Translations under genes and position numbers: made by a program
Source of the DNA: Spirochaetales bacterium
GTDB lineage: Bacteria > Spirochaetota > Spirochaetia > JABMQR01
Direction: 5' to 3'
Length of the DNA: 64,000 nucleotides
Assembly (NCBI GenBank): GCA_018399255.1
Contig: JAGYPA010000014.1
Span: 1-64,000 of the forward strand
Shown: positions 28,826 through 64,000 of the stretch, in pieces
Numbering within the stretch: position 1 is the first letter of the stretch
Layout of the letters: each line of letters opens with the position of its first letter
Notes under the pieces: model-generated
What the model was told of the DNA's origin: nothing
Databases searched by the model: none
The model's input: only the letters and a program-made list of their open reading frames with translations

Positions 28826-28837
28826 AAGTAAATAAAA

Positions 28838-28930
28838 GGTGTCTGACACCGTATTCTGCAATTTTTACCGGTTTTTTTGAGGAAAACGGTGTCTGAACCC
28901 TTCTTTTTTGAGGAATACGGTGTCAGACAC
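28838..28930. repeat. REP/BIME-like element, copy 2
   Basis: AGGTGTCTGACACCGTATT on the left and GAATACGGTGTCAGACAC on the right flank a partial internal arm (AAACGGTGTCTGA). It sits inside the operon between the hydantoinase stop and the permease ribosome-binding site, so the transcript would carry a long hairpin there. Confidence 0.85.
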
Positions 28931-28955
28931 TTGTAAAATACAGGAGGGTAATGAG

Positions 28956-44778: not shown

Positions 44779-44842
44779 GGTGTCTGACACCGTTTTCCGC
44801 AATTTGAGGGGCTTTTTTTGAGGGATACGGTGTCAGACACCC
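44779..44842. repeat. REP/BIME-like element, copy 5
   Basis: GGTGTCTGACACCGTTTTCC and GGATACGGTGTCAGACACC are inverted arms around GCAATTTGAGGGGC and TTTTTTTGAGG. It lies between the convergent ends of the lipoprotein and the lactonase relic. Read leftward, the right arm gives the in-frame stop of the lactonase. Confidence 0.9.
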
Positions 44843-45773
44843 CGTATCCTATAGAGAGTTTTTGATGCGGCAATATAGAGTGTCCGCAAATCGGGGTCTC
44901 CCCAGCAGAAATTTGCTGTCTGTTCGGGAATCAGGATTCTGCCGATTGTTTCTCGCATTCTGTTGAAAATCTGGATGCCCCCGGGTCCGGTGCAGAATAT
45001 ATCCCCTGAGTCGTAATTTCATACCATCAGCTTTGCCTGTTGGCTTGTCCTGTGTGAAAGCTCCGTGGGCAAAACAGTCGTCCATTGCGCAGGAGTCCCC
45101 TCTCTGTCGACATCAAAGCACCTTGATATGCTGCTGCATGCGGTATCATTTACATAGAGCTTAGTTTCATCGGGAGAAAAGCAGAGTCCGTTCGGCAGAA
45201 AGTCATCTGCAAGCAGGGATCGTTCCCCGGAATTCGGGTCCAGCTTGAATACCCTGATAGGGCAGCGCCCTGCTTTCTTGGTATGCCAAACTCTTTTCTC
45301 CGCGCCCTGATGGTAGATCATCGGTAAAATAGATCATTCCGTCACTTTTAACGACAATATCGTTAGCTGTTCAGCTGCCGTCCTTATACTTATCCGCCAG
45401 AACTGTATATGTTGTCTGGGATCAGTCCTTCGGGATATGTAGCTGGTTGCGTGTTCGCGGCGGTCAGCAGGGCCCTGGTCAGATCGAGGGTATTGCTGCT
45501 TGCCAGATAGCTGTTAAGCGTGCGCATCATTTCTACGGTACCGATAAGTTCCGGAGCATCGCTATCAGGTTCAGACGAGCGGGTTTCATGGGAAGTGTGG
45601 AGTATAGGTATAGAGAGCGTTCCCGGCCATCGCCGCCGAGAAAATCAGCCGGTCATTGCGCGGGTCCCAGACGGTCCTTCAAGAAAGCGAAACCTGCTTG
45701 CCGCGATTCTCCAGCAGAGCTTCAGGATCAATGTGTCGGGGGAAAATCGGTGCAGTACTTCAATGGTTTTCAT
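44833..45773 (-). pseudogene. SMP-30/gluconolactonase family, frameshifted
   Basis: From ATG 45773 the pieces MKTIEVLHRFSPDTLIL, LSEGPVWDPRNDRLIFSAAM, ANDIVVKSDGMIYFTDD (near 45340), DDFLPNGLCFSPDETKLYVNDT (near 45180) and DGMKLRLRG then YIAASKTLYRIRGV match the six-bladed propeller lactonases in order. They hydrolyse sugar lactones using Ca2+ or Zn2+. At least four lesions. The true frame ends at TGA 44833-44835, inside the REP element. It is the last gene of the long minus-strand train, after the LacI gene. Confidence 0.82.
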
Positions 45774-45777
45774 ACGG

Positions 45778-45850
45778 GTTTCGATCCTTGTCAGTTATCC
45801 ATCGATCCTTGTCGATTGTCTATCGACTCCTATCGGTTATCCATCGGGGG
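45778..45850. repeat. Imperfect tandem repeat at the LacI-lactonase junction
   Basis: ATCCATCGATCCTTGTCG, ATTGTCTATCGACTCC and ATCGGTTATCCATCGG follow each other around the LacI stop codon, with period near 18. Confidence 0.5.
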
Positions 45851-46879
45851 ATTCCGGTCGGCAACGGATCCGCGCTCCAGTATCTGACCAAAAAAGAGAA
45901 AATGAACCGCATCGGTTGTAAAGTGTTCGATCTTATCTATGAGACCTTCCACGGTTTTATCGATCATACGTTCCATTGGCTGCTTGAAGGTGGTCAGGGG
46001 ATAGTGGATTTCGTTGGGGATCGGGATTCCGTCAAAGCCGACAATTGAAATATCATCGGGGAAGGTCAGCCGGGTACGATAGCGGACATAGTCCATAAAT
46101 CCCATCGCTGAGGTATCGGACGCGCAAAATACCCCGTCAGCATCAACAGTTGTGCGGAACAGCTCCTCCGCTGCGGCAAATCCTGACTGATAGGTATAAT
46201 CTCCGGGAAGAACCCGGATATCAGCTATTCCGCGTTTGTTTGCCTGCTCGATAAATCCCCGCTTTCTGTCCCGATTGGTGGATGATCCCTCTTCTCCTGA
46301 GACATAGACAAGATGTCGATGTCCCCGATCGATGAGGAAATCGGCAACGCTTCGTCCTCCGTCAATATTATCGCAGCAAACGGTATTGACGTTCAGTCCT
46401 TCGCTGATTCTGTTGAACAGAAAAACTGGAGTTTTGTAGCGCAGGCAGCCTTCCACCAGGGGAGATGAGAGGGTTGCCGATGAGATCACCAGACCGGCGA
46501 CCTGATATTCGAGTGCTTTTTTCAGGTTCTCCTCTACACTCCGGTCATCGTGAAGGTTAAACAGCATTACCGAAAAACCGGCTGCCTGAAGCTTGCTGGT
46601 AAATATGGAGAGCACCCGCATATAGAAGCTGCTCTCAAACTCTCTCAGAACGAATCCGATAATTCTGGTTGTCTGCGTATTGAGAGAACGGGCTATCTGG
46701 CTAGGTCGGTATCCCAACCGGTCTGCCGCTTCGAGAATGCGCTTTTTCTTATCGTCCGATACGGATATTCCGCTGTCATTGAATACTCGGGATACAGAGG
46801 ATTGAGAAACGCCGGCTTCTCTTGCAACATCCTTCGAGGTTGCCCGCTTGCTGTCTGAAAAATCTTTCATAGGCTCCAT
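45830..46879 (-). CDS. LacI-family transcriptional regulator
   Basis: The helix-turn-helix TSKDVAREAGVSQSSVSRVF (residues 14-33) and hinge SQIARSLNTQ are followed by the periplasmic-binding-protein-like domain (IGFVLREFESSFYMRVLS, VAGLVISSATL, VFLFNRI, DGVFCASDTSAMGFM, ISIVGFDGIP, LTTFKQPMERM). Length (about 349) and motifs are complete. ATG 46870 with GGAG close upstream is an alternative start. It lies in the same direction as, and near the end of, the catabolic train and most likely senses its inducer sugar. Confidence 0.93.
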   Translation of the reverse strand: MEPMKDFSDSKRATSKDVAREAGVSQSSVSRVFNDSGISVSDDKKKRILEAADRLGYRPSQIARSLNTQTTRIIGFVLREFESSFYMRVLSIFTSKLQAAGFSVMLFNLHDDRSVEENLKKALEYQVAGLVISSATLSSPLVEGCLRYKTPVFLFNRISEGLNVNTVCCDNIDGGRSVADFLIDRGHRHLVYVSGEEGSSTNRDRKRGFIEQANKRGIADIRVLPGDYTYQSGFAAAEELFRTTVDADGVFCASDTSAMGFMDYVRYRTRLTFPDDISIVGFDGIPIPNEIHYPLTTFKQPMERMIDKTVEGLIDKIEHFTTDAVHFLFFGQILERGSVADRNPPMDNR

Positions 46880-46988: not shown

Positions 46989-47648
46989 CTAGAGGTTGAG
47001 TATATCACGAATTTGCGCAACGCCGCTACGGAAACTGTGGAGAACCGGAACGGGTTTGTCTTTGCATTTTTGCACAAGGCTGTACATGCTGCCCTGGGCC
47101 AGGCAGACGACATCATTGTCCCGACAGGCATCGTCGATGGTGGCCATGAGTATTTCATCATGCCTGGCCTTGTTGCCCTCCTTAAGGAGCGCATCGTAGG
47201 CGCCATCGGCGAAGCATTCGTTTACCATCGTTTCAACATGCATCTCTTCCGCGGTTTTCTTGACCAGTCGGGCTGACGGTCCCAAGGTCGTGTAGGCTGT
47301 AGCAACCACCCCGACACGTTTGCCGAGCCCGATCGCCTCCTCGGCCATGGGTCGGTCAACTTTAATATAGGGGATTGATACGAGCTTCTGGGCTATTTCG
47401 GATACTTCTCCCACCGATGAGCACTGATTGAGTATGAGATCACAGCCTTTCTGCTCGAGCTCCTGGGCATAGTTGCAGATTCGCCGCACTACCGCCGGCG
47501 TCGGGCCGCCATTTTCCAGAACTTCCTTCAGAAGGCTGTCATCAATAATGTTGATCATATCAACCTCGGGAAGCAGCTCGCTGAACAGGGCTTTCAGGTC
47601 TTCCACGGAATAGAGAAATGTATGGATAACACCTACTTTCTTTTTCAT
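46989..47648 (-). CDS. Asp/Glu/hydantoin racemase superfamily protein, one catalytic Cys replaced
   Basis: The two-domain fold is visible: KVGVIHTFLYSVEDL at the start, LILNQCSSVGE (C76) as the first catalytic position, GKRVGVVATAYTTLGPSARL and DVVCLAQGSM (180-188). Classical racemases have a second Cys where this protein has Gln (LAQGSM), a variant seen in sugar-operon members that probably are not racemases. Length (219) is normal and no lesion is seen. It follows the phosphoglycerate kinase relic and precedes the LacI gene on the same strand. Confidence 0.85.
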   Translation of the reverse strand: MKKKVGVIHTFLYSVEDLKALFSELLPEVDMINIIDDSLLKEVLENGGPTPAVVRRICNYAQELEQKGCDLILNQCSSVGEVSEIAQKLVSIPYIKVDRPMAEEAIGLGKRVGVVATAYTTLGPSARLVKKTAEEMHVETMVNECFADGAYDALLKEGNKARHDEILMATIDDACRDNDVVCLAQGSMYSLVQKCKDKPVPVLHSFRSGVAQIRDILNL

Positions 47649-50339: not shown

Positions 50340-51125
50340 TCAACGGTCGGGATACTCAGATGCAAAGGCTTCGGTGAGGGATCGGGCAGCTTTGCCCAGG
50401 GATACTGTGTCAGAAAACAGCAGCAGCATCCGGTACCCGCGGTCATATTTGATTTTTGCATCTTCCCAGGAGGATGCTACGGTTGCCAGGATTTTACTGC
50501 TGGCCAGTACTTTGTTTTCGATGATTCTAATGGTCTCCTGAACCTCCGGGTCCTGGGGCCGGCAAAAATGTCCCATACTGGTTGCCAGGTCCATCGGGCC
50601 GATAAAGATTCCGTCAACTCGTTCTACCTTCAGGATTTCATCGAGGTTTTTGACGGCTTCGGGGGTTTCGACCGCTGTCATGAGAAATATCTCGTCGTTA
50701 GCCCGAGAGAGGTATTCGAGCGACTGTTTTCCGTAATGGGCTGCCCGCGGGCTGCCGGCAACGCCGCGGATTCCTTCTGTCGGGTAGAGGACGGCTCTGA
50801 CCGCATCCTCTGCCTCACGGGCACTGTTTACATAGGGTACAAGCAGGCCGTAGACTCCTGCGTCGAGGATTTTCTTCAGCTGTACGAAGTCGTTCCATGG
50901 AGCTCGGACAAAGGGGACTGCCGTCTGGCCTTTGAGCGCCTGCACCTGGCTGATCAGGGTAAGGATATCGCCGGGCCCATGCTCCAGATCGATCATTACG
51001 GCATCGTATCCCGACTCGCCCAGGATTTCGGTTGTTATGGGGCTGGCAGCCTGCGCCCAGGCGGCGGTAACCCGCTTGCCCTCTTTCAGCAGTTTTCGAA
51101 CACGATTGGTATGGGTAGTTTCCAT
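50340..51125 (-). CDS. HpcH/HpaI family aldolase (2-keto-3-deoxy acid aldolase type)
   Basis: The family residues are R74 in FVRAPWND, the metal ligands E153 (AVETPEAV) and D179 (IGPMDLATSMG), and H49 in DLEHGP (46-51). Products are pyruvate and an aldehyde such as lactaldehyde, glycolaldehyde or glyceraldehyde. Length (261) is standard and no lesion is seen. It follows the URO-D gene by 65 bases and precedes GAPDH and PGK relics, which could oxidise a triose product. Closest described types are RhmA and GarL, but the substrate is not fixed by the sequence. Confidence 0.92.
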   Translation of the reverse strand: METTHTNRVRKLLKEGKRVTAAWAQAASPITTEILGESGYDAVMIDLEHGPGDILTLISQVQALKGQTAVPFVRAPWNDFVQLKKILDAGVYGLLVPYVNSAREAEDAVRAVLYPTEGIRGVAGSPRAAHYGKQSLEYLSRANDEIFLMTAVETPEAVKNLDEILKVERVDGIFIGPMDLATSMGHFCRPQDPEVQETIRIIENKVLASSKILATVASSWEDAKIKYDRGYRMLLLFSDTVSLGKAARSLTEAFASEYPDR

Positions 51126-51189: not shown

Positions 51190-52329
51190 TCAGTTCTCGA
51201 GCCGCTTCAGCGGATACACCGAGAACTCATTGACGGCATGGTAGAATGCAGCGACATTTTCCGGGGGAATATCGTAGCCAATATTGTGACAGGTGGCGAT
51301 GATATACCCGCCGCCGGTTCCAAGGTCGCAGAGGCGCCGGTTCACTTCCCGGCGTACCTCTTCAGGCGATGCGTTCACCATAATATTCTGCACATCGATT
51401 GCTCCGTGAAAGGCTATTTTTTCCCCGTAGGCGGCATTGAGGGCAGCGGTATCGCTCAGTTCCTTCACTGATGTCTGGACAGGGTTGAGAATATCGACCC
51501 CGATCTCTATCAGTCCGTCAAGCAGGGGCAGTACGGAACCATCGGTATGAAACATCAGTTTTGCCTGGGGGGCGAGGCTTTTGATATGGCTGATCAGCTC
51601 GGCCTCCCGGGGTTTGAGGAATGTTTCCCACATCTCTTTCGACATGAGCAGGGAGTTCTGGCTTCCGAAGTCATCGGTAATATAGACAAGCTGAATATAC
51701 TCGCCCACTTCTCGCATATAGTCGGTATACATCTGCTTGTAGCAATCGGTGACGGTGTCCAGCAGTTTGTGGGCAAACTCAGGTTCCAGGATAAAGTCCA
51801 TATAGAGCTGATCATACCCGCGCAGTTCCAGGCTGGTCTGGAAGATTCCGCCCTTTATGCCGTCCGCTCCGATTACGTAATCTGTTTCCTCATAGAGTCT
51901 TTTCGCTTTCTCGCGCAGTCCTGCGAACATTTGCGGATCATGCAGGTCCGGCCATGGGTAGGAGTCCAGATCCTCAATCTCTTTTTCCTTCAAGGGGGCA
52001 TCAGCTACGGAAAAGTAGTCTCCTGAATCCCGGAAGAGTACGCCGAAAAGGTTGCGGTAGCTATTCTCATCGAGATCCTCAATCTGCACCCAATGGGGTT
52101 CCAGCCAGCGAAAATCGATACCCCAGGCTTCCAGGAGGTCCTCGTCGGAAATTACGCACTGGCTCATGCGGTCGAGGATTACCGGTTCCTTCGCCGGAAG
52201 CCCCATGATCTTCCGTATTTTTGCGTACCCGGATTTGTGGATGGACCCGACCTGCTTTCCCTGATCTACGAGAACCCGGCCGGCTTCCCGATGCTCCATT
52301 GCCGCTGTGAATATTTCCCTTCTGTTCAT
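51190..52329 (-). CDS. URO-D/MtaA-like methyltransferase
   Basis: An undamaged 379-residue protein: MNRREIFTAAMEHREAGRVL, YVIGADGIKGGIFQTSLELRG near 155, YITDDFGSQNSLLMSKEMW near 222, LMFHTDGSVLPLLDGLIEIG, ILNPVQTSVKELSD, KIAFHGAIDVQNIM and GGGYIIATCHNIGYDIPPEN. The last three are diagnostic of the sugar-operon URO-D group. The start overlaps the isomerase-like stop by four bases (ATGA), so the two proteins are translationally coupled. A role in removing or moving a methyl group on a methylated sugar is possible but unproven. No corrinoid-protein partner is encoded in the window. Confidence 0.9.
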   Translation of the reverse strand: MNRREIFTAAMEHREAGRVLVDQGKQVGSIHKSGYAKIRKIMGLPAKEPVILDRMSQCVISDEDLLEAWGIDFRWLEPHWVQIEDLDENSYRNLFGVLFRDSGDYFSVADAPLKEKEIEDLDSYPWPDLHDPQMFAGLREKAKRLYEETDYVIGADGIKGGIFQTSLELRGYDQLYMDFILEPEFAHKLLDTVTDCYKQMYTDYMREVGEYIQLVYITDDFGSQNSLLMSKEMWETFLKPREAELISHIKSLAPQAKLMFHTDGSVLPLLDGLIEIGVDILNPVQTSVKELSDTAALNAAYGEKIAFHGAIDVQNIMVNASPEEVRREVNRRLCDLGTGGGYIIATCHNIGYDIPPENVAAFYHAVNEFSVYPLKRLEN

Positions 52330-53813
52330 GCGATTGTTCCTGTATCTTGCGGTTTCCGCACTGTCTGTCTATCAGCGGGCTGGTCAGCCTGCCGGGTAAA
52401 TACGACCGGTTCAATACCGAGCATCCGACATACTTCCACCAGCTCCCGGGTATAATTTCCGGCTACCCCTGAGATATGGTTAGATCCGTACTCGTCGACA
52501 AATTCTTCAATGGAAAACTGGATATCGGCAAAGAGCGTCGGCAGCTGGTGGGGTCCGCGGCCTTCGATAAAGCTGTCTATGGTCTTCTGGCTGGGAGTCA
52601 CGGCTTCGGTCGGAATTATGGCCATACGATACTTGCCGTCCACCCGGTAGAGGCGGGCCAGCTGCATCGGTCCGGGAGCTGCGAAGAAGCTCGAGATTCC
52701 GCCGCCGCCGGGGCGTATGGACTGCTTGATGGTTATCCGGCTGAGATTTTCTTCGGGTGAGCTGCTGCGGCCGGCATACCAGGCGCAGAGTGCTCCGCAG
52801 TTGACGCAGAACATGGTGTGCTGCTCGTCATCTATATGGCTCACATCGGCAAAGAAGGTTGGAGCCCCCCCGGAGACGATTTTCAGGATCTGCTGGGTCA
52901 GGGCGCCGTCACCGTCGGCCTCACAGGCCATAACGATGCCCTCCTTTTCCCCCTCCTCACCATCATAGTTGTCGGGGAGGAAGGTTGCGGTCATGCACTG
53001 AGGCACATAGTTGTTGGAGAGTTCCGGCATGCACTTCACCGCAGTAAAATTGAGCCCCATCTCACGGCATATATCTTTTGTAGCCAGATAGCAGGCCAGC
53101 TGAAAATCAAACTTGCTTTTAGTCAGCTTCCCGTCGTTATAGAGGACCGCTGCAGCATTGTCCTCAATCCACATGCGCAGGGTATCGACCCGTTTCTGAT
53201 CGATCAAATCTGCCCGGCGGATTATTTCCACCTGGTCTATATGCTCCACATCGACTCCAAACTGCTTCCTCCATCCCATCGGGTCGAAGGCCGCAGTATC
53301 GATTCCTATCGAGCGACCGCCAAAGTAGCCCATTACCGCACCTTTGAGTCGGCTCTTAACGGCTGCCGCGCGGATTATCGGGAGCAGGGCTTCGCGGTAG
53401 GCTTCTGTCGAGTAGTCGCTGCGGATGCGTTTGTGATCGATTCCAATCTGGCTCAGGGCTCCGGAAGCTCCAAAAAGGCCGACACACCCGTGCGTGGCCA
53501 TATCCCGGTTTCCCAGAACTATGGTAAAAATCCCCATGCGCTGAATACCGTGAACCACGAGATTGGGCGAGGTCCAGCAGGGGGTATGCGCTATGAGAAG
53601 ATCGACATGCTGAGCAATGAGGGCATCGGCCTGATCATTGATATCTTCTCGTGAGCGGGCGGGCTCGGGGTGAGAAATCAGCTCCACCGGCAGCCGGGAG
53701 AGAGCTTCAGCAGCCAGGGCATGCCGAGGCACGGTCATAGCCTTGAATACGGCATTCCATTCGGGATCCCGATTGTCTCCAAAGGTGATAAGTCCAACTT
53801 TCGGTCTGGTCAT
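52326..53813 (-). CDS. L-fucose/L-arabinose isomerase-like protein
   Basis: The 495-residue protein begins KVGLITFGDNRDPEWNAVFK, has LLIAHTPCWTSPNLVV and GVDVEHIDQVEI in the N-terminal domains, MACEADGDGALTQQIL near 290 (the fucose-isomerase CExDxxGA motif with E and D metal ligands) and GSNHISGVAGNYTRELVEVC near the C-terminus (the SNH motif). Members interconvert aldoses and ketoses using Mn2+. No lesion. It lies between an SDR gene and a coupled URO-D gene. It is a different branch from the gene at 14886. Confidence 0.88.
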   Translation of the reverse strand: MTRPKVGLITFGDNRDPEWNAVFKAMTVPRHALAAEALSRLPVELISHPEPARSREDINDQADALIAQHVDLLIAHTPCWTSPNLVVHGIQRMGIFTIVLGNRDMATHGCVGLFGASGALSQIGIDHKRIRSDYSTEAYREALLPIIRAAAVKSRLKGAVMGYFGGRSIGIDTAAFDPMGWRKQFGVDVEHIDQVEIIRRADLIDQKRVDTLRMWIEDNAAAVLYNDGKLTKSKFDFQLACYLATKDICREMGLNFTAVKCMPELSNNYVPQCMTATFLPDNYDGEEGEKEGIVMACEADGDGALTQQILKIVSGGAPTFFADVSHIDDEQHTMFCVNCGALCAWYAGRSSSPEENLSRITIKQSIRPGGGGISSFFAAPGPMQLARLYRVDGKYRMAIIPTEAVTPSQKTIDSFIEGRGPHQLPTLFADIQFSIEEFVDEYGSNHISGVAGNYTRELVEVCRMLGIEPVVFTRQADQPADRQTVRKPQDTGTIA

Positions 53814-53834: not shown

Positions 53835-54665
53835 TTACAGCTCCTGCATCTGCCGCAGTTTTTCGTAATCCTCATCGGTCACTGTCTTGTACCCGGGGTT
53901 GGGGAAGGCCTGAAACGATCGCCCGCCGTCGTTGTAGATTGACTGACCGAAGATAAAGTCGGAATCCTCGCAGGCGAGAAAGACCGCCAGACGCCCGCAC
54001 TCTTTCGGGGTGCCTATTCTGCCCAGGGGTGTCCGGGAGAGAATGGTGTCCATAAGCTGCCTGTCAGATCCCACACGCCGCATAAGATCTGTCTCTATCG
54101 GTCCCGGAGCCATCGCATTGACCTTTATTCCGTGGGACGCCAGCGCGACCGCCTGAACCTTGGTCAGCTGCTGCACCCCGCCCTTGCTCGTGGTGTAGAC
54201 CATCTGCGAATCGAGGGCGAGATAGGCGTTTACCGACGACATATTGATAATAGCCCCGCCGTGCCCCTCCTTCACCATCTGCCGGGCGGCATACTGGCCG
54301 CCGAAAAACATGCCCCGCAGATTCACATCCATAATCCGGTCGTACTGCTCCGGGGTAATATCAAGGTAATGGGTTTTTTGCGGATCGTTGATTCCGGCAT
54401 TGGCGACATAGATATCCAGACGCCCGAAGCGTTCGGCTGCTGCTGCAATTATCCGGTCCAGATCTTCCAGCTTGGCCACGTCGCAGGGAATATAGGCGGC
54501 CTCTCCCCCGAGGCTGCGCAGGTAGGCCTCTCCCCGGGCTCCGGTCTCGGGGCTGCGTCCGCCGATAACGACCGCGGCCCCCTCCCGCAGAAATTCTTCG
54601 GCAATGCCGAGGCCTATGCCTTTTGTTCCGCCGGTTATGACGGCCACCTTGCCTGACAACTTCAT
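53835..54665 (-). CDS. Short-chain dehydrogenase/reductase
   Basis: Classical SDR: TGGTKGIGLG (11-20), NAG (89-91), catalytic S143/S144, Y157 and K161 (YTTSK), and PG in APGPIETDLM. It oxidises or reduces a hydroxyl or keto group of a small polar substrate with NAD(P). Length (276) carries a short C-terminal tail (NPGYKTVTDEDYEKLRQMQEL). The start overlaps the creatininase stop by four bases, showing coupling. Confidence 0.93.
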   Translation of the reverse strand: MKLSGKVAVITGGTKGIGLGIAEEFLREGAAVVIGGRSPETGARGEAYLRSLGGEAAYIPCDVAKLEDLDRIIAAAAERFGRLDIYVANAGINDPQKTHYLDITPEQYDRIMDVNLRGMFFGGQYAARQMVKEGHGGAIINMSSVNAYLALDSQMVYTTSKGGVQQLTKVQAVALASHGIKVNAMAPGPIETDLMRRVGSDRQLMDTILSRTPLGRIGTPKECGRLAVFLACEDSDFIFGQSIYNDGGRSFQAFPNPGYKTVTDEDYEKLRQMQEL

Positions 54666-55576
54666 TTTTTCAACTGCCCTTTGCTGTCATGATCCTTGTC
54701 GTAGACAATTTCAGCTGTGGTGGCGTATCCGCCGGGATTGCGGAATCCGAGAGGATTGATTCCCACGGGATACTTGCTTTTGATTTCCTCAATAAGCTCG
54801 GCATAATGGACCACAACACCCTCTACCACAGCTTTACCCTTCTCATAGGATGCCTTCGTCGGATCCCCGATAACGCCGTTGTCCAGATCATCTTTTTCAG
54901 GAAGGGCAAAGGTTCCTTCAAAATGATAGAGAGATCCGGGGGTCGCCTGCTGTCCGGGAGCAATTTTCCATTTGGCATCGATAAGCGGGGTTCCGTATCC
55001 GGCTGCCGCCAGCTCCATCTTGATAAACTGGGGATAGAGATAGAGACCGACTGATGTTTCGGCCTCGTCAGCATGCCACATGTAATCTTCCAGCACGGTC
55101 TTGTCGTCCCGCAGGAAGTCGTACCAGGTTGATGAGATGGTGAACAGTCCTTCGATCCCCAGCTTGTGGGTGGCAACGATGGTGGAAGAGACCTGTCCAT
55201 GGGCCGAGATGATAAGGAACTTGTTGTACCCTGATACCGAGGCTCCGCGGATAATATCCATAAGCAGCCCGATATGGGTTTCGTATGTCAGGGGGATGGT
55301 TCCGGGCATGCCCCAATGGTGATGGGGATGCGAGCCGTACATGGGACAGGGGAGCACCATGGCACCGGTTTTTTCAGCCACTTTTTCGGCTATGCCGATG
55401 GCATTGTACGTGTCCATTCCCGTGGGAGCATGGGCCGCATGCTGCTCTATGGCTCCGATCGGCAGAATTGCCACATCGCATACTTCTTTCGCGTAGTCAA
55501 TTACCACTGCGGCGCTGTTTTCCTGAAACCATACGGAATCTCTGCGGTTCAGTTTGAATTCGGTCTGCTTTTTCAT
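54662..55576 (-). CDS. Creatininase-family hydrolase
   Basis: Metal and catalytic positions are clear: E44, H46 in GAIEQHAAHAPTGMD (41-55, D55), HWGMPGT (87-93), SAHGQVS (124-130, H126) and WHADEAETS near 168. The family hydrolyses cyclic amides or C-C bonds of cyclic ketones; one branch (3-dehydro-scyllo-inosose hydrolase) opens inositol-derived rings. SAHGQV instead of NGHGGN sets it apart from true creatininase. Length (304) is slightly long. In the train it lies between an Ldh2-type dehydrogenase and an SDR, fitting ring opening after oxidation. Confidence 0.9.
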   Translation of the reverse strand: MKKQTEFKLNRRDSVWFQENSAAVVIDYAKEVCDVAILPIGAIEQHAAHAPTGMDTYNAIGIAEKVAEKTGAMVLPCPMYGSHPHHHWGMPGTIPLTYETHIGLLMDIIRGASVSGYNKFLIISAHGQVSSTIVATHKLGIEGLFTISSTWYDFLRDDKTVLEDYMWHADEAETSVGLYLYPQFIKMELAAAGYGTPLIDAKWKIAPGQQATPGSLYHFEGTFALPEKDDLDNGVIGDPTKASYEKGKAVVEGVVVHYAELIEEIKSKYPVGINPLGFRNPGGYATTAEIVYDKDHDSKGQLKK

Positions 55577-55692: not shown

Positions 55693-56756
55693 TTACGCCA
55701 GATCAGGTTCCAACCTGCAGGTCATTCCCAGTTCTGCTTCCAGATTCTGCAGTTCCCGCACCAGCTCTTCCGGCACCGGGATGCCCCCGGTCAATCGTTC
55801 CTGCTCAAGGCGGTACTCAATCTCCCCCGGGATTATCTGCTCGGTCCCCGGCTCTGCCATCGGGGTCTCCTTGATCATCTTCACCCAGCTTTCCATCCGT
55901 CTGGAGAATTCTTCAGCGTCCATAAAGAATCCAGGATCAATCACGCAGAACAGGTGTGAAGTAAGGCTCGGTTCATCCTTCTGCTTATACATGCTTTTTA
56001 TATCCTGCAGAAAGGGTCCTCCGCTCAGAACGCCTGTAATGATATCGATAAAGAGTGAGAGTCCCAGTCCTTTATGCAGTCCGGTGGGCAGCAGGATTCC
56101 CGCAAATCCGGCGAACGGATCGTCGGTAGGGTTCCCGTCAGCATCAATTGCCCAGGTATCGGGTATTTTCTCGCCTTTCTTCTGGGCCAGCAGCAGCTTG
56201 CCCCCCGAAACAGCGCTCATGGAAATATCGAGGGAAAATGGGTAGGGTTTACCTATCGGTGCTGCAAGAGCCAGAGGGTTGTTTCCAGTTACCGATTTCC
56301 TGTTTCCCGGCATGCCGATATTGGGTATGACATTGGTTGTTGCAATACCGAGCATTCCCGCATCCGCTGCCTGCCGGGTGTAGAGTGATGCGGCTCCGAA
56401 GTGATTGCTGTTGCGCACGATGATCATGCCGAATCCGAAGTTTTTCGCTTTCTCGACGGCTTCATCCATTGCCCTGCGGCCGACGGTATACCCCATTCCC
56501 GCATCACCGTCCATGACTGAGAGCGGCCCGTTCTCCCCTCTTGCATAGAAGGGTTTGGCGGCAGCGTTTACCGCTTTGGAGCGAATACGGTTGATATAGG
56601 CGGGGGTGCGGAGAATCCCGTGCGAATCGATGCCCACAGGTTGGTCAGCGGGGTGCAGTCAGCGCATACGGCGGCATCGGCTCTGCCATCCCGGTTCGGG
56701 TATACATCTCGGTCAGGTATTCCTGCGAAACTGCTTTGAAAAAGCTGCTGGTTCAT
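55693..56756 (-). pseudogene. Malate/L-lactate dehydrogenase (Ldh2) family, frameshifted N-terminus
   Basis: From 56637 an open frame covers most of the protein: MGIDSHGILRTPAYINRI, GAAMG-type GDAGMGYTVGRRAMDEAV, VRNSNHFGAASLYT (catalytic His), NPLALAAPIGKPYPFSLDIS and GLGLSLFIDIITGVLSGG. The first 35 residues (from ATG 56756, MNQQLFQS) are in other frames, including YLTEMYTRTGMAEP. Two lesions at about 56690 and 56640. Ldh2 enzymes reduce 2-keto acids such as 2,3-diketogulonate or delta-piperideine carboxylate. The catalytic core is complete. Confidence 0.85.
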
Positions 56757-57021
56757 ATCGATCCTCTCTCGCCAGTTTATTCACCTGCGATCATTTTTAT
56801 GATTACGTAGTCATATAGTATCAACAATCCATCCCCCTGTCCAGAGGTTTTTCAACTTATTCGACGGTCTCCGCCGCAAGTTCCTTCCATCTGATTGATT
56901 ACGTATTATTCTTTTTTATTATTCCTGGAGCAGCTTCAGCCCCGATCGACTTACTCTCCATATGCCACAAAATCGCTGTCACGCCAATGACGGCCTCTGC
57001 ACCTGCCGGGCTGCCGTCATT

Positions 57022-58006
57022 TCACGCATCCCGGTTGAACACGTCGACCCCCAGCTGATGATAGACGCTCAGCAGGTCGACTAATACCCAGTTCTCCTTA
57101 TCATACCCTTCTCGCAGCGCCAGAAATCGAGACTGCGCATGGTAATCTTCTGCCCTCGGGACAATCCCCAACCATCCGTCGCCGGTTACCGTCATCTGCA
57201 TGTTCGGCCAGCCGGTTACTGCAACATAGGGACCATCGGAAAAAAAGTGGAACTCGAGTCGGTCTCATCTCCCCTGTCGGGCAGAGCTTTCCCAGGAATG
57301 GAATCTGATGCCAATTGCGGAAGCCGCTTATCCGGCGGTTGGTGCCGATACCGGCCGGGCCGTACCAGGTCATTTTCGGATGCCAGAAATGGTCCAGCTG
57401 CATCGCCTCGGGTCCCCCCTTCGCATGCTGTTTCAGTCCATCCAGCATAGCAATGACCAGCTCCATGCTGGCGGCAGACACGTTTTCATCCCTCGGAGGC
57501 GAGACAACCCGTCCTGTGGTGCCGGGGAGGGAGCCATCAGTTCCAGCCCCGAGCGCTGGAGCAAGCAGCCAAGCCGGGCCTGCAGCATCAGCTGGGGAAT
57601 GTCCCAGATACCCTGCATTTCGACAATACGCCCCTGCTCGATCCGATAGAACTCATGGAACACCATATGAACAAAATGGCAGGTGGGGGAATATCCAGCC
57701 AGGGTGTTCAAAAACACCCACATAGTTTCCTGCGCAGCCGACCCAGTTGCCCCGTTCCGCCGGGCCGGAAACCTCGAGAAACACTCTCTCTCAGATCCAG
57801 ACTGCCAGGCCAGGCCAGCATGAACACACACCAGAGCTAAAGCTCAGCGGGGACAATTATGAGATCCTCGAGGAAAGAAATTGAATTTCGCAATCGGCGG
57901 AAAACAGCTGATTAAGCTGCTCAGGAAACCGATCCTGATCAAGATCGTAGAGAGCGGCATTCAAGAGTCCAACAATCTCTTTATTTTCTGCATACAGGGG
58001 GTTCAT
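57022..58006 (-). pseudogene. Double-domain SnoaL/NTF2-like protein, frameshifted
   Basis: ATG 58006 has GAGGAG upstream and begins MNPLYAENKEIVGLLNAALY. Later pieces are VFHEFYRIEQGRIVEMQGIW and DIPQLMLQARLG (first domain), then LDHFWHPKMTWYGPAGIGTN and RRISGFRNWHQIPFLGKL, and LVDLLSVYHQLGVDVFNRDA before the stop. The order copies the protein at 60458-61497, so it is a paralogue. SnoaL-like folds bind small hydrophobic or cyclic ligands and include cyclases and isomerases. At least four lesions. The gap 56757-57021 to the Ldh2 gene shows nothing. Confidence 0.72.
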
Positions 58007-58075
58007 CAAGTACTCCTCGTCTCATTCTCGACATATTGCCCAGTTCCTTTTCGCTATACAGCCCGATGGTGATGC

Positions 58076-59245
58076 TTACCTCAGTATCGTTCTGTAAACT
58101 CGCAGCATATTTCCACCCAGAATTTTACCTGCCTCCTCATCGTTATACCCATGATCGAGGAGAATTTTCTGCATCAGAGGAAAATTCTCGTGCGAATCTG
58201 GCCCCGATATGTAGTCACTCTTCCGGATACCGTAATTGATCCCGTCTATCCACCCTGGATACTTCTCGTTCTGAAGCGGGGTCAGCTTATCAAAATCGCA
58301 GATTTGCGGTCCCAGATTTCCGTAGCCGCGTACCAGGTCCCGGCAGACAGGTGTTTTATAAGCGCTGTAGTCAGGTCCCAGCGCAACATGATCTATCCCT
58401 GCCAGATTTACAATGTGATCAATATGACGCAGCAGATCTTCCGGTCCGGGATGTGCTTTCTCCGCAGCAGCCAAAGCCGCCAGGAAGCTGATGCCGATTA
58501 CCCCGCCGCTCCGGGCCAGCATGCGTATCCGATCATCGCTGATATTCCGCGGATGGGCAGATACTGCAGCCGCTCCGGTATGGGAATCGATGAGCGGGTT
58601 GGCAGTATGTTCTGCGAGATCGTAAAATCCGCTGTCTGCGAGCTGCGCGGTATCCAAGACGATGTGGAGCCGCTCGGCTTCATGGACAACCTGCCTGCCG
58701 AACCGGGTCAGTTTGCCTCCGGTCCGTCTCTGCCCGACCCCGTCTGCGAGCCGGTTGCGTCCGTTTCCGGTAAGCTGAATTCTCCGCAAACCTCCACGGT
58801 AAAGCGAGCGCAGGCTGGAGAGCAGATTGAGATTTTTCTTGCCCTCCAGCGGGCGTCCACCGCTGATACCGAGAAACAGTCCAATCTGATCGCCTGCCAG
58901 GACGGCATCAATATCTGCGTTGCTTCGACATATTCTGAAGGACTGACAACCGTTTTCTTCTTCGACAAGCAGGGCATCAAGCTTTTTGTGGGCATCCCAG
59001 AATCTGTTTTCGCTGGTGCTGTAGATTACCTGGGCGGTGTGGTCGCCGCCGATGGACAGTGAAACAAACTTGACTCCCTGTGCTTTGAGCAGGGGCAGAT
59101 AGATTTCAGTAAAGACCGGACGTCTGTTCTGCAGAACCTCGGCTTCGCAAAGAATGAATGTGTAGAGATACTCATCGAGCAGCTCCTGGTGGGCATCAAA
59201 GAGCAAAGGTTTATGATATCCAGTTTCTTCTGCTTTTATTATCAC
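58076..59245 (-). CDS. Membrane dipeptidase-like protein (peptidase M19 / renal dipeptidase family)
   Basis: A barrel with the M19 order: LLFDAHQELL (the usual DxHxD), LDTAQLADSGFYDLAE, IDSHTGAAAVSAHPRNISDD near 270, GGVIGISFLA, RHIDHIVNLAGIDHVALGPD and KILGGNMLRVYR at the end. Members hydrolyse dipeptides, or D-amino-acid and beta-lactam bonds, using two Zn. The first motif lacks its second Asp (DAHQE), so one metal site may be altered. The frame is open from 59341, but those residues overlap the upstream paralogue, so GTG 59245 is used. It may have been recruited to an amidated or acylated sugar substrate. Confidence 0.8.
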   Translation of the reverse strand: MIIKAEETGYHKPLLFDAHQELLDEYLYTFILCEAEVLQNRRPVFTEIYLPLLKAQGVKFVSLSIGGDHTAQVIYSTSENRFWDAHKKLDALLVEEENGCQSFRICRSNADIDAVLAGDQIGLFLGISGGRPLEGKKNLNLLSSLRSLYRGGLRRIQLTGNGRNRLADGVGQRRTGGKLTRFGRQVVHEAERLHIVLDTAQLADSGFYDLAEHTANPLIDSHTGAAAVSAHPRNISDDRIRMLARSGGVIGISFLAALAAAEKAHPGPEDLLRHIDHIVNLAGIDHVALGPDYSAYKTPVCRDLVRGYGNLGPQICDFDKLTPLQNEKYPGWIDGINYGIRKSDYISGPDSHENFPLMQKILLDHGYNDEEAGKILGGNMLRVYRTILR

Positions 59246-59285
59246 GTTGCTCGGGTGAAACAGATTCCCGATCTCCTTTTTCAGC

Positions 59286-60461
59286 CTATCGTCTCGTGGA
59301 AAACCGCAGCATATTCCCGCCGAGAATATTCCTGCGGTCATGATCAGAATAACCGTGACGCACTAGATATTCTGCTATCATCCAGACTTCCCCCGGATTA
59401 TTCGGGGCGTCAACATATGGTCTCCGGTTGGTATACCGGTATAGAATCCTTCAATGGAACCTGGTCCGGGGCGCATAGCCCGGTGAATATTGTGGACCAA
59501 CTCGAAATTGTCAAAATCGAGCCCCAGGCCGATAATGCTCGGTGCCGATCAATGCGAATATGTGATCGATATGGCGTATCCCGCGTGTTCCCAGGTTATC
59601 AGGGGAACCGCCTTTCTGTTCCTTCTCAGACTCCCAGACTATTTCTGTTTTTGACCATTTCCATCCCTATGACCCCGCCGTTTCTGCCTATAGCACGTAT
59701 GCGTTCGTCGGAAAGGTTGTTGGGATTTGGGGCAGACAGCCCCTGAACACCGACATGCGAGACAACAGCCGGTTTGCGGGTAATTTCAGAACTCGAAAAG
59801 GTCCTGTCAGTCATATGGGTAGATCGACCAACATGCCCAGCTGCTCCATTTCTTTGATAAGTTTTACGCCGAAGGTTGTCAGACCGGCTTCAGCATCAGC
59901 CTCACCCATCCCGTCGCCGAATCGTGTCCGCCCGCCGCCGACGATGCACACCATGCGCAGACCAAGCCGGTGAAAGGTGCGCAGCATCACCAGGCTCTCT
60001 TCCCCCTCAATTCCCTCAAGGGCACGGGCTCCCTCCATAGCAAGAATAACCGCTGTCTTTCCGGCTTTGGCAGCCAGTTCTATCTCCCTGACAGAGGTGC
60101 AGATTGACAGGGAGGCTCCCTGCTCCTCAGCTCGCCTCAGCATATCGATCTGCTCCAGCGAGCCATGCACAAGGTCATCGGTCAGATTGCATACGCAGGG
60201 TGAATTGCCGCCTACAGTTGTCGCTATCACATCGATCTTCCCGCTTTGCAGGACTGGAGCATACCAGGTATTGAAAATATCGGCATACCCGAGAGCTTCG
60301 CGGATCGCATACTCGAACATCATGTGATTGTGGATATCGACAACTATGGTATCGGAGAGAATTTTACGGGCACGGCTGCTGAGATCTTCTCTGTGCATTT
60401 TCTGATAGGGACTGTCGAAGTTCACCTGCTTTTGGTTCCTTTTATTCTGGATTTTTCTCAC
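59286..60461 (-). pseudogene. Peptidase M19-family protein, frameshifted C-terminal half
   Basis: GTG 60461 overlaps the stop of the SnoaL-like gene (GTGA). VVDIHNHMMFEYAIREALGY (the DxHxH site), AVILAMEGARALEGIEGEE (the Glu bridging ligand) and GGGRTRFGDGMGEADAEAGL are intact to about 59811. SHVGVQGLSAPNPNNLSDER (59760) and GGVIGMEM follow in another frame, and the tail RRNILGGNMLRFSTRR ends at 59286. About four lesions. Paralogue of the next gene downstream. Confidence 0.8.
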
Positions 60462-61497
60462 CGGTTTGGCGGAGCATGGGGAGGGGGCAGATTCTGCCGC
60501 ATCCGCTCGAGCACATCAACCCCCTGCTGCTTGAGCCAATAGGGTATATCGATGAAGATCCAGTTCTCGGCTATCTTGTCGCCCTCTCGCCGATAGACAT
60601 CGACAACCTGCATCTCAACATCGCGGGTACCGCCTGGGAGGCCGAGCCATCCGCCAAGGGAGTGTTTTTCAAGTTGGGCCATCCGAAAAAACAGGCAAAC
60701 GATCCTTCGGCAAACCGGCACACATGACCGACAAATTTTTTCCCGCCCAAACTGGCTCTGAACGGCAGCTGATGCTGCTTCTGATAGCCGGGAATGGTAT
60801 AGGAGGCGCCGACGCCGGCTGGTCCGTACCAGATCATATCCTCAGACCAGTAGGGTTCGAGAAGTTCCGGGGGGCAGCCCATCGAACCGCTTTCGTTCAG
60901 TTCGCTCAGCGAATTCACCATCCGGTCTATCAGATCCAGGGTTATCTCACTCTCTTGCTGCGGGGCATCGTTGTAGAGCAGTCCGTCATGGGTACGTGGT
61001 CCGGGATAGGTATAGTAGGTTCCGGTGGAGGGAGGAAGGGGATTGATTCCCGCCTGCTGCATGAAGCCTATGAGGTCGGCAAACATGCCGGTCTGAGTTA
61101 TCTTTCCATCCTCTATGCAGTTAAACTCTGCATATCGCAGGTTGGCAATTTTGCCTGTCGGGGGAATATCGAGCCAGGGGTTTACGAAGAGGCCCATGAA
61201 GTTCCCCATGCTCATTACCCAGGTTTCACCGCTTATTTCGTTGGTCCCGGCGATAAAGATGTCCTGTCTGCGCTGCATGCGGGCAAGCGCGTGCTTGAGG
61301 GGAGTCCAGAATTGATCGGCTGCCTCCTGCGCTCCATGGAGTTCACGGAAGGGATACATACCTCTCCACTGATACGTGCTGCTGGTATATTGAGCAGCGG
61401 CAGCTCCGACGGATTCCGGTGCGGCCTGCTCCAATTCGTTGAAATAGCGGGAAACGATGCTTTTTGCTTCAGAAAATACGCCCATATGCAGCTCCAT
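60458..61497 (-). pseudogene. Double-domain SnoaL/NTF2-like protein, one frameshift
   Basis: ATG 61497 is three bases from the upstream stop. Domain 1: WTPLKHALARMQRRQDIFIA, GNFMGLFVNPWLDIPPTGKI, RYAEFNCIEDGKITQTGMFA. Domain 2: LLEPYWSEDMIWYGPAGVGA, IPGYQKQHQLPFRASLGGKK. A lesion near 60640 shifts the end to LPGGTRDVEMQVVDVYRREG and IDIPYWLKQQGVDVLERM. If it is a sequencing error the gene is whole (about 345 residues). It has the same two-domain plan as the genes at 57022, 61500 and 62584. Confidence 0.8.
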
Positions 61498-61499
61498 GC

Positions 61500-62591
61500 T
61501 CAGACCCGACGGGTGCAGAGTTTTATTCGAAGGTCCAGCTCACTTACAAATATCCGTTCACTTACTATCTTACCGTTATTAATCTGATATTCACTTATGA
61601 GGGGTATGGTCAGTTGTCTGCCGGCTGGTGTTCCCAAATACCCCTCCCCTCTGTGAACTCCCTGCAGGGTCCAGCGTACTGCCGCAGAGATTGGCAGCTG
61701 CGAGGTTCCGTCGTCTGCATTTTTCGTTTTCGTTTTCATGCTGAAGGGTGATGGATCATTTGGGGCTGAAAGCGTGCCCGGGATCGTTTCATCAATGATA
61801 ATTTCATCGACATAGGCTCGTGCATCGGGAAACATGGCAAGCATCGAGTAGACGTAAGCCTGATAGAGGCCTCGGTCAGGTTGATGATGACTTCTCTGCA
61901 GCAGAAACCCTGCGGGAAGGGAAAACTTGCATGCTTCGTGATGCGTCCGGGAAATCACCCCGGGACTCCGGCCGTTCCAGATGGTTTTGATAAGATTGGT
62001 GAGCTGCTGCGCAAGTGAGTTCCGCTGGTCCGGCAATTCTGGATTGTCAGGCAGTCCTGGATTGTCAGACATATCCGTCAGGTCCGGCAAGTCCTGACCG
62101 GAGGTCCGCTCGGTGTCCCCAAAAAGCATCTGCAGATCAAAGAATGGTTTCGGCTCCGCGCTGCGCTGAAGGTAGTCGTCCTCATCAATCTTGAGCTGAT
62201 TCATCAGACTGCCGTTATCGGCGACATTCCAGATTTCGGTTATCGTTGTGTTTTCGAGATGGTAGATTGATGCTCCCGTCAGCATCATCCTGTTCCCTGT
62301 CGGCGCTCCTGCCTTTCCGAAGCCGAGATGGGTTCCCCTCATTGTCCAGCGGATACAGGCTCTCAGCCCATGCTCTTCCTGGTTGTCGGCGGCAATCCCG
62401 TCAATTGAAAATTCGAGATCGGGAAAGGCTGCGTGCATATCAACTATGGCGGCAATCAGCGCATCACGGCTGTAGAGCTGGTTTCCGGGTCCGAAAAAGA
62501 GGCGAACGGTATGGCGGAACATCGCTGCGAGTTCCCGAAGCTGCCGATCGTTCCAGGCGGACAGAAGAGCTTGCTTGAGCTTATCAATCAT
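61500..62591 (-). CDS. Double-domain SnoaL/NTF2-like protein
   Basis: Two cyclase-like domains are joined by a linker rich in Asp/Pro repeats (SDNPGLPDNPELPDQ, encoded by an 18-bp array). Domain 1 (about 1-130): AAIVDMHAAFPDLEFSIDGI, LRACIRWTMRGTHLGF and GAPTGNRMMLTGASIYHLEN. Domain 2 (about 190-355): YVYSMLAMFPDARAYVDEII, ISAAVRWTLQGVHRGEGYLG and TPAGRQLTIPLISEYQINNG. The PTGxxxxxxGxxxxxxxxGKI pattern is the SnoaL signature. Its start overlaps the previous gene by eight bases. Enzymatic role unknown. Confidence 0.85.
   Translation of the reverse strand: MIDKLKQALLSAWNDRQLRELAAMFRHTVRLFFGPGNQLYSRDALIAAIVDMHAAFPDLEFSIDGIAADNQEEHGLRACIRWTMRGTHLGFGKAGAPTGNRMMLTGASIYHLENTTITEIWNVADNGSLMNQLKIDEDDYLQRSAEPKPFFDLQMLFGDTERTSGQDLPDLTDMSDNPGLPDNPELPDQRNSLAQQLTNLIKTIWNGRSPGVISRTHHEACKFSLPAGFLLQRSHHQPDRGLYQAYVYSMLAMFPDARAYVDEIIIDETIPGTLSAPNDPSPFSMKTKTKNADDGTSQLPISAAVRWTLQGVHRGEGYLGTPAGRQLTIPLISEYQINNGKIVSERIFVSELDLRIKLCTRRV
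62029..62066. repeat. 18-bp tandem repeat in the SnoaL-like gene linker
   Basis: CTGGATTGTCAGGCAGTC and CTGGATTGTCAGACATAT follow each other in frame and encode the DNPGLPDNPEL linker. Confidence 0.75.
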
Positions 62592-63747
62592 ACCCCCTTA
62601 CCCCCTCCCCCGGTTTTTCGCTGTCAGCGTACCCGTGGATTTCCGGGGTGTACAGCTGCTTGAAGAGGGCAAACTCATCAAAGGCAGTATATTCTTTGAT
62701 AAATTTCCCGCCCTTTATATGCATATGACTGATGCCCATCAGCCTGATCCGCTTGCCGGTGGGAACCCCGTAGATTCCGTTCTGCTCGTGAGTTCCCTGT
62801 ATAGTCCAGCGTACGGCTGCCCGGTACCCCTTTTGCTCGGAGCCGTTCCAGTAGAGGTGATCTATACTCATTTTAAGGTCGGGGAATGCGGACAGCAGGG
62901 AAAGTATGTGGGCTTTCAGATTCCCTCGTCCATAGAGATTTCTTCCCGAAGGGCCGAAGTATTGATAATTTTCTACATAATAGTCGCTCACTTTGTTCAC
63001 AAAGCGCCAGTTCCAGATTTCGTGCTGCGTGTGCCGGATAAACTCGTTCACATCGAAACCATCTCCAAAAAAGGTATCGGCGAAGGGGGCAATGGGTTCG
63101 GGAACATCCTGCCCGTTCGTTCGTTCAAGATCGCCGCGCAGGTCAGGGGCAAACGATTTCCCGCCTTGGGATCTCACCATCTTGGCCGCCAGACGCCACG
63201 GATCATATCCGAGCTGGAGCACCAGGCTCATCTCATCCCGGGCTATCCACTCCTCGATTATAAGATTCTCTTTAACCAGACAGTTGGCTATGCCGAACCG
63301 GAAAATCTTCTTTCCTGTCGGCGGGCCGTACTTGCTGAAGCCGGTATTGGTCCCTGTCCAGGTTATCCGGTGCGATGTGTGAAACCCATCATCTTCGTTA
63401 CCCATCCAGATTACATCGTCCCCATACAGTCTGACATCGGGAAATGCTGATCGTACCTGGGTCGTTGCGGCTATCACCTGTTCCCTGCCGTAGGAGAATC
63501 CGTCAGCGGTCTCGATCGGGATAGTATGCAGATAGTGGCCGTAGATTTCCCCGATCCCGCCGTCTTCCCAGATTTTATGGGTGCAGCGAAGAATGTAGTC
63601 GACGATGTCGATGTAATCATCATCAAATCCCTTCAGCGACTGCACGCGCTTGCCTGTGGGATGAAGAAATCGTGATGCGTCTCCTTTGCCGGCTACAGAA
63701 ATTGCCTCTTCCAGCTCACGGGTTGATGTGTCATGCATTTTGCCCAT
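62584..63747 (-). CDS. Double-domain SnoaL/NTF2-like protein
   Basis: ATG 63747 follows AGAAGGAG. Domain 1: IVDYILRCTHKIWEDGGIGE, VRSAFPDVRLYGDDVIW, SHRITWTGTNTGFSKYGPPT and FGIANCLVKENLIIEEWIAR. Domain 2: FIRHTQHEIWNWRFVNKVSD, YQYFGPSGRNLYGRGNLKAH, LLSAFPDLKMSIDHLY, YRAAVRWTIQGTHEQNG and TGKRIRLMGISHMHIKGGKF. It is the first of the set in transcription order and directly follows an ABC permease. No lesion. Ligand unknown; the pocket would bind a compact, probably cyclic molecule. Confidence 0.87.
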   Translation of the reverse strand: MGKMHDTSTRELEEAISVAGKGDASRFLHPTGKRVQSLKGFDDDYIDIVDYILRCTHKIWEDGGIGEIYGHYLHTIPIETADGFSYGREQVIAATTQVRSAFPDVRLYGDDVIWMGNEDDGFHTSHRITWTGTNTGFSKYGPPTGKKIFRFGIANCLVKENLIIEEWIARDEMSLVLQLGYDPWRLAAKMVRSQGGKSFAPDLRGDLERTNGQDVPEPIAPFADTFFGDGFDVNEFIRHTQHEIWNWRFVNKVSDYYVENYQYFGPSGRNLYGRGNLKAHILSLLSAFPDLKMSIDHLYWNGSEQKGYRAAVRWTIQGTHEQNGIYGVPTGKRIRLMGISHMHIKGGKFIKEYTAFDEFALFKQLYTPEIHGYADSEKPGEGVRGYD

Positions 63748-63783
63748 TGCGTACTCCTTCTGCTTCAGTAATACCCGCTGCAA

Positions 63784-64000
63784 TTATCCCTTAACTGCTC
63801 CTCCGGTAAGTCCCTTTACCAGATGCCGCTGAAAAATGATGATGATAATGATGATCGGAATTGTTGCCGAAACGGCTGCCGCCGCAGCAAGCGTCATGTG
63901 CCCGGGAGCTTCACCTCCGGTAAACTGCACTATGGCAACCGGCAGGGTCCACTTGGACTGTGTGAGGACACGGACAATGAGAAACTCGTGGTAGGCTATG
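63784..64000 (-). CDS. MalG-type carbohydrate ABC permease, C-terminal part (runs off the window)
   Basis: The minus strand reads IAYHEFLIVRVLTQSKWTLP, VAIVQFTGGEAPGHMTLAAA, IPIIIIIIIFQRHLVKGL and TGGAVKG before stop 63784. The last membrane segment plus the GLTxGAVKG tail is typical for MalG permeases. Its stop is 37 bases upstream of the first SnoaL-like gene, so it belongs to the same train and probably imports its substrate. Confidence 0.9.
   Translation of the reverse strand, partial: IAYHEFLIVRVLTQSKWTLPVAIVQFTGGEAPGHMTLAAAAAVSATIPIIIIIIIFQRHLVKGLTGGAVKG

Follow-up and report, generated by a model that had tools for sequence, protein, structure and literature searches.

The polyether epoxide hydrolases Lsd19 and MonBI-MonBII (PDB 3rga, 4rzm, 9kw6, and 9kw8) combine two NTF2/SnoaL-like folds, within one chain in Lsd19 and within one complex in MonB; tandem NTF2 enzymes thus have precedent, although we know of none in catabolism. 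The same fold is found per domain in the polyketide cyclases SnoaL and AknH and in IdmH (PDB 1sjw, 2f98, and 6hnn), and a further comparison is offered by the M19 membrane dipeptidases DPEP1, SCO3058, and GliJ. We analyzed a 64,000-nucleotide stretch of Spirochaetales bacterium DNA (assembly GCA_018399255.1, contig JAGYPA010000014.1, positions 1 to 64,000; hereafter the window), in which four double-domain SnoaL-like genes (A, B, C, and D) and two M19-family genes (M19-1 and M19-2) follow a sugar ATP-binding cassette (ABC) permease gene. The gene set very probably represents a conserved catabolic system. With somewhat more confidence than doubt, we further regard the window locus as a partly decayed copy of such an uncharacterized system for an imported, methylated, N-substituted ring compound.

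As read directly from the sequence, the genes A, B, C, M19-1, M19-2, and D lie in this order on the minus strand directly after the permease gene ending at 63784, and neighboring gene ends within the run from the permease to D (63784 to 57022) overlap or almost touch. This agrees with the initial annotation, which had described two M19-family genes and four SnoaL genes as one coupled unit starting at a sugar ABC permease. The genes of this run and the importer genes preceding it are as follows.

L003:5933-6949, minus strand: solute-binding protein, broken at the 5' end (PF01547; homology extends upstream of the start of the open reading frame)
L003:4791-5654, minus strand: first sugar ABC permease, preceding the second
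63784..64000, minus strand: second sugar ABC permease, 3' part, continuing to 64788 of the contig (L003:3784-4788)
62584..63783, minus strand: A, double SnoaL/NTF2-like protein, intact (PF07366 in two stretches; AlphaFold2 model)
61500..62591, minus strand: B, double SnoaL-like protein, intact (PF07366 in two stretches; domain 1 degenerate)
60458..61497, minus strand: C, double NTF2-like protein with one frame change near 60640 (homology to Desulfobacterota C; fold of an orthologue)
59301..60461, minus strand: M19-1, M19-family hydrolase gene, broken (PF01244; stop at 59811, homology on to about 59301)
58076..59341, minus strand: M19-2, M19-family protein, intact, with three metal-ligand positions replaced (PF01244)
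56985..58006, minus strand: D, double SnoaL-like protein with several frame changes (matched by the intact D of L018 and L106)

The upstream genes form the run expected of a CUT1 importer, an SBP_bac_1 binding protein with two BPD_transp_1 permeases, the binding protein (PF01547) and one permease (PF00528) being assigned by Pfam. The order of binding-protein and permease genes is kept in Marispirochaeta (L009) and in two Desulfobacterota loci (L018 and G474).

The distribution of these genes was assessed by one scan of genome contigs, which recovered 446 relatives of A; 78 loci were kept for neighborhood analysis, and 59 plasmid records also match A. Relatives were found in Chloroflexota, Deinococcota, Spirochaetota, Thermodesulfobacteriota, Pseudomonadota, Actinomycetota, and Acidobacteriota; a viral origin was rejected, as one scan of viral contigs gave no relative. 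The neighborhoods were compared with 36 control stretches from the same genomes, which are mostly contig starts rather than a random draw. Sugar ABC, LacI, and HisD genes were about 10-fold or more enriched around SnoaL genes, with 3.5 versus 0.33 permeases, 3.3 versus 0 LacI regulators, 2.5 versus 0 solute-binding proteins, and 1.8 versus 0 HisD genes per 100 kb in the 78 loci and the controls, respectively; HpcH, cupin, and C-type genes were also strongly enriched. Annotated loci are hosted by Deinococcus, Phaeobacter, Sinorhizobium, Pantoea, Roseomonas, Roseibium, Vibrio, Ruegeria, Priestia, Octadecabacter, Halobellus, Marinovum, and Martelella. The set recurring in them, plasmid loci included, comprises LacI, sugar ABC, SnoaL, HisD, short-chain dehydrogenase (SDR), cupin, MetE-II-like, and alpha/beta hydrolase genes, an RraA or HpcH aldolase, and an amidase, nitrilase, or sarcosine oxidase, with a subset that differs by locus; MetE-II is present in ten loci. 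Together with the intact counterparts in other phyla, the enrichment over controls places the gene association beyond chance. In a tree, A, C, and D each cluster with orthologues from other phyla, whereas B sits on long branches and its placement is less sure; a lineage-specific duplication lacking conserved neighbors, the outcome named in the initial annotation as fatal to its proposal, is thus rejected.

Several further genes were observed near SnoaL loci. Genes for SBP56-type proteins occur in Marinovum (L165:15376-20981) and Phaeobacter (L005:9748-11145), the former adjoining genes annotated as dimethylsulfoniopropionate (DMSP) demethylase and for DMSP breakdown. FGGY glycerol-kinase-type and glycerol-3-phosphate-oxidase-like genes lie near A in six loci (L045, L078-L081, and L084) of Enterobacteriaceae, Burkholderiaceae, and Deinococcales. 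A glycosidase or glycerophosphodiester substrate was considered and set aside, with no recurring glycosidase or glycerophosphodiester phosphodiesterase noticed, while the GlpK/GlpO neighbors of the six loci remain.

Counterparts of the window operon are found in Desulfobacterota and in one other spirochaete. In the Desulfobacterales locus L018, the genes C, B, A, and D stand in a row and are followed by genes for SMP-30, creatininase, SDR, FucI-like protein, a URO-D/B12-binding fusion, RraA, and Ldh2. Two contigs of one Desulfobacteraceae metagenome-assembled genome (L013 and L106), which end and begin inside M19-1, together hold the window gene set without B, plus EutBC. The intact operon of G474 contains LacI, UgpC, two solute-binding protein genes, two permeases, C, M19-1, M19-2, SMP-30, creatininase, SDR, FucI-like, RraA, Ldh2, GalE, AOR, URO-D/B12, and D genes, and its divergent arm carries solute-binding protein and permease genes, an A-like SnoaL gene, and EutBC. 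Marispirochaeta has the regulator, M19-1, M19-2, solute-binding protein, permease, A, and B genes, all intact. The association of double SnoaL genes with sugar ABC genes is a conserved feature of many phyla; the M19 pair highlighted in the initial annotation accompanies them in three genomes outside the window, those of Marispirochaeta and the two Desulfobacterota (L013 with L106, and G474). Among 341 genomes of the class of the Desulfobacterota loci, two gave a strong M19-2 match and three had A, the former two being included in the latter three; the probability of this co-occurrence by chance is about 5e-5 if the genomes are taken as independent, which related genomes are not. The system is uncommon within Spirochaetota, where A was found in 4 of 296 genomes. 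Two further spirochaetes (L176:299-4927 and L177:8328-10386) carry a LacI gene and, side by side, two SnoaL genes of one domain each, accompanied in L176 by FucI-like and HpcH genes; the SnoaL pairs are likely a relative, and possibly an unfused form, of the double protein. HisD was absent from the window and was not seen in the Desulfobacterota loci examined.

The double-domain architecture was assessed by single-chain structure prediction with AlphaFold2. Both A (48-row alignment; mean predicted local distance difference test, pLDDT, 87.3; predicted TM-score, pTM, 0.86) and the C orthologue of L018 (33 rows; mean pLDDT 94.9; pTM 0.92) were predicted to form two NTF2-like domains. The initial annotation had assigned two fused SnoaL domains to each of the four genes. 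For A and B, this is corroborated by two stretches of PF07366 in each; for C, SnoaL similarity and the orthologue fold agree with it, but the window copy is frame-changed (56-67% identity to Desulfobacterota C, in pieces in frames 2 and 1). D matches the intact double-domain D of L018 and L106 over its full length at 36-40% identity, but is spread over three reading frames in the window. The tandem form itself is less unusual than had been suggested, as a tandem NTF2 enzyme, Lsd19, has a solved structure and double forms occur widely. Among solved structures, the best matches spanning both domains of A and C are again Lsd19 and the MonBI-MonBII complex; however, identity to them is only 9-14%, and over both domains the predicted models deviate by 15-18 Å (root-mean-square deviation; TM-score 0.27-0.40), which may reflect a different domain placement. 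In addition, A and C are found among catabolic neighbors and not in a polyketide context.

Single-domain structural matches reach a target TM-score of about 0.8, with 0.72-0.80 for SnoaL, AknH, and IdmH, which share PF07366. SnoaL uses Asp121, and His107 and His119 are among its essential residues (PMC6830212). When SnoaL numbering is transferred to A by sequence alignment, the His107 and Asp121 positions are occupied by Ala166 and Ile180 in domain 1 and by Ser352 and Thr366 in domain 2, whereas the His119 position holds an invariant or nearly invariant glutamate, Glu178 in 100% and Glu364 in 98% of 53 A-type sequences. A SnoaL-type aldol cyclase was accordingly rejected: the fold and PF07366 agree with it, but Asp121 and His107 are not kept and the polyketide biosynthetic context is missing. 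In the B-like proteins of seven loci, domain 1 lacks most of the residues conserved in A, while domain 2 retains most of them. The recurrence of A/B/C/D sets and the fact that the A/B and M19 pairs each include one degenerate partner are compatible with the multi-subunit complex that the initial annotation had envisaged, and such assemblies may exist.

M19 dipeptidases bind zinc through H20, D22, E125, H198, and H219 and hold the dipeptide carboxylate with Arg230 (DPEP1 numbering). M19-1 and M19-2 share PF01244 (93.8 bits for the intact part of M19-1 and 212 bits for M19-2), the fold, and part of the metal site with these enzymes, but residue losses can be read directly in both. The comparison covered four genomes, namely the window, Marispirochaeta, the Desulfobacteraceae genome, and G474; window M19-1 is readable only in its first part, which does not include the Arg230 position. 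In M19-1, the HxD motif is replaced by HxH (D22 to H), Glu125, His198, and His219 are kept where sequence is present, and Asn or Thr stands at Arg230 in L009, L106, and G474. M19-2, whose window copy is 65% identical to the Desulfobacteraceae and 57% to the Marispirochaeta protein, is altered alike in all four genomes (Asp22 to Glu, Glu125 to Ser, Ala, or Asn, and His198 to Gln) and keeps His219 and Arg230. Thus neither protein has the full set of zinc ligands and M19-1 has lost Arg230, which excludes the plain dipeptidases of the initial annotation. Judged from these residues, the pair looks like a hydrolase with a pseudo-subunit rather than two dipeptidases.

Downstream of D, the window contains further genes with counterparts in the related operons.

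55693..56637, minus strand: Ldh_2 family dehydrogenase, 5' end broken (by homology)
54662..55576, minus strand: creatininase-family protein, with the diketo-inositol hydrolase IolN as closest model, below cut-off (64% identity to L013)
53835..54665, minus strand: SDR dehydrogenase (by homology)
52326..53813, minus strand: fucose-isomerase-like (FucI-like) protein (57-63% identity to L013 and L176)
51190..52329, minus strand: URO-D/MtaA-like methyltransferase-family protein (L018 counterpart fused to B12-binding domains)
50340..51125, minus strand: HpcH/HpaI-type aldolase (by homology)
45830..46879, minus strand: LacI-family regulator, possibly of the cluster (34% identity to LacI of the related locus L176)
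44812..45732, minus strand: SMP-30/gluconolactonase-like gene, broken (SMP-30 is part of the cluster in L018 and G474)

The state of these genes raises the question of whether the operon of the source genome is a non-functional remnant from which, taken alone, nothing on function could be learned, and we consider the chances of this evenly balanced; it is compatible with the other readings. Frames are broken in C, M19-1, and D, at the 5' ends of the Ldh2 and binding-protein genes, and in SMP-30, and open reading frames cover 0.65 of the window contig compared to 0.83-0.99 of other contigs of the same genome. On the other side, A, B, M19-2, and the creatininase, SDR, FucI-like, URO-D, and HpcH genes have intact frames. 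Since rpoB of the same genome is intact and the low coverage is confined to the window contig, the damage is local and genome-wide sequencing error is not favored as its source; it may reflect real decay or a local assembly error. Intact operons in other genomes make the conclusion on the family independent of the window copy. Frame-broken genes are numerous across the whole contig (1-64000). In the decayed region, a phosphoglycerate kinase gene fragment (47718-47984, minus strand; PF00162 model positions 307-379) adjoins an Asp/Glu racemase-family gene (46989-47648), and a second, broken URO-D-like copy in two frames lies at 16403-16794 (minus strand). Also on this contig, a hydantoinase A-family gene and, after it, a cytosine/purine-type permease gene are intact (27269-30284, plus strand).

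The chemistry that we infer for this putative system would begin with uptake of a polar, sugar-like compound by the CUT1-type importer. A methyl group on the substrate is suggested by the URO-D/B12 or MetE-II genes, and its removal by URO-D/B12 proteins in anaerobes or MetE-II-like proteins in aerobes would be the first step. That an amino acid or amino alcohol is attached through a C-N bond is suggested by genes of the M19, amidase, nitrilase, M20, and sarcosine-oxidase-like types and by EutBC. M19-1, which keeps its metal site with one ligand changed, and M19-2, which lacks one, would cut this bond in the second step, a role that amidase, nitrilase, M20, or sarcosine-oxidase-like proteins may serve elsewhere, and EutBC would deaminate the released amino alcohol in some anaerobes. 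The third step, a lyase, dehydratase, or isomerase reaction of the ring compound, could fall to A-D, which probably form A/B and C/D assemblies containing one degenerate domain and would rely on the invariant Glu found where SnoaL has His119. Oxidation by SDR, Ldh2, HpsN-like HisD, or AOR would follow, the HpsN-like HisD pointing to a primary alcohol with a neighboring hydroxyl. That a cyclic diketone is opened can be surmised from the IolN-like protein or the cupins; as a fifth step, a cyclic beta-diketone would be opened by the IolN-like hydrolase in anaerobes or by a cupin in aerobes, the latter role being modeled on the cupin dioxygenases. Finally, HpcH and RraA suggest aldol cleavage, by which these aldolases would yield central metabolites.

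An amidated cyclic substrate, as proposed in the initial annotation, would fit the M19, amidase, nitrilase, EutBC, and IolN-like creatininase-family neighbors. There is perhaps an even chance that the substrate is a polar, sugar-like compound whose ring, probably carbocyclic, bears methyl, hydroxymethyl, and nitrogen substituents. Mycosporine-like amino acids and gadusols serve algae, corals, cyanobacteria, and fungi as abundant UV sunscreens, and their structures unite a methyl group, a C-N bond, a primary alcohol, and cyclic diketone-type features. They are the best named candidates, although only a tentative choice. A number of carriers originate from algae, corals, soil crusts, hot springs, and lichens, an impression rather than a count or statistic, and both the habitats and the fit of the gene set to mycosporines are circumstantial. 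The fullest version of this proposal, in which the genes encode the missing bacterial breakdown of mycosporines or gadusols, a new multi-subunit double-NTF2 ring enzyme, and a hetero-oligomeric M19 hydrolase cutting a vinylogous amide with one pseudo-subunit, is rather unlikely as a whole.

Two other classes of substrate are each improbable, to a similar degree. The first comprises ordinary cyclitols and their methyl ethers or amines (pinitol, ononitol, or a rhizopine-like compound), in which case the IolN-like protein would open a diketo-inositol and the double-NTF2 proteins would be epimerases or dehydratases. The 3-dehydro-scyllo-inosose hydrolase IolN is indeed the closest curated model to the creatininase-family protein, and the sugar ABC, LacI, SDR, and methyltransferase-family genes agree with a cyclitol. 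However, the scores of 149.5 and 165.1 bits fall short of the NF041098 cut-off of 245 bits, no other iol genes or inositol pathway were found at the locus, and the HpsN-like HisD and AOR point to a primary alcohol or an aldehyde, groups that plain inositols do not have. The second class is an unusual sugar, sugar acid, or sulfo-sugar, on which the SnoaL proteins would act as lyases or isomerases while M19 and amidase attack an N-acyl side chain. This is consistent with the HpcH aldolase and with the best weak matches of the FucI-like protein to sulfoquinovose isomerase and of Ldh2 to sulfolactate dehydrogenase, as well as with the HisD-like protein of the aerobic loci, which scores 381 bits against the sulfopropanediol 3-dehydrogenase HpsN compared to 273 for HisD. 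Unlike in HpsN settings, no 2,3-dihydroxypropane-1-sulfonate (DHPS) or sulfolactate genes were seen at the HisD-like loci; there is also no recurring glycosidase or sulfolyase, all sulfo-metabolism matches are far below cut-offs, and the beta-diketone-type hydrolase, cupin, and methyltransferase genes would be left over. The automatic name 'ester cyclase' would imply a cyclase cluster for biosynthesis or detoxification, but this is highly improbable, as the SnoaL Pfam family and best folds among polyketide cyclases and polyether epoxide hydrolases are outweighed by importers and LacI regulators in place of polyketide synthase or other biosynthetic core genes and by the loss of the SnoaL catalytic pair from A.

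Several points weigh against a catabolic system for a methylated, N-substituted ring compound. The M19 link is seen in four genomes only, with most SnoaL loci lacking M19 nearby, and these four may be connected by gene transfer, which would leave few independent events behind the association. The GlpK and GlpO-like neighbors in enterics, Burkholderiales, and one Deinococcales locus are not accounted for by the proposed scheme. Most neighboring enzymes score below named-equivalog cut-offs, so that the individual chemical steps are guessed from superfamily membership, and the broken genes mean that the window copy may no longer work. Finally, the open-access library searched, which covers part of the literature, yielded no paper that describes a cluster of this kind or genes for mycosporine breakdown, and likewise no published pathway for the set, in line with the initial annotation, which had matched it to no familiar pathway.

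The operons nonetheless look like a catabolic pathway for which no published description was found. Their proteins occur in hundreds of genomes from seven or more phyla, where the labels 'ester cyclase' and 'nuclear transport factor 2 family' say little about them. Identification of the substrate would annotate a widespread route for carbon, and probably also nitrogen, in bacteria from the sea, soil crusts, and hot springs and in those associated with plants. The pairs of normal and degenerate enzymes, A/B and M19-1/M19-2, would exemplify the emergence of hetero-oligomers from old single-chain families.

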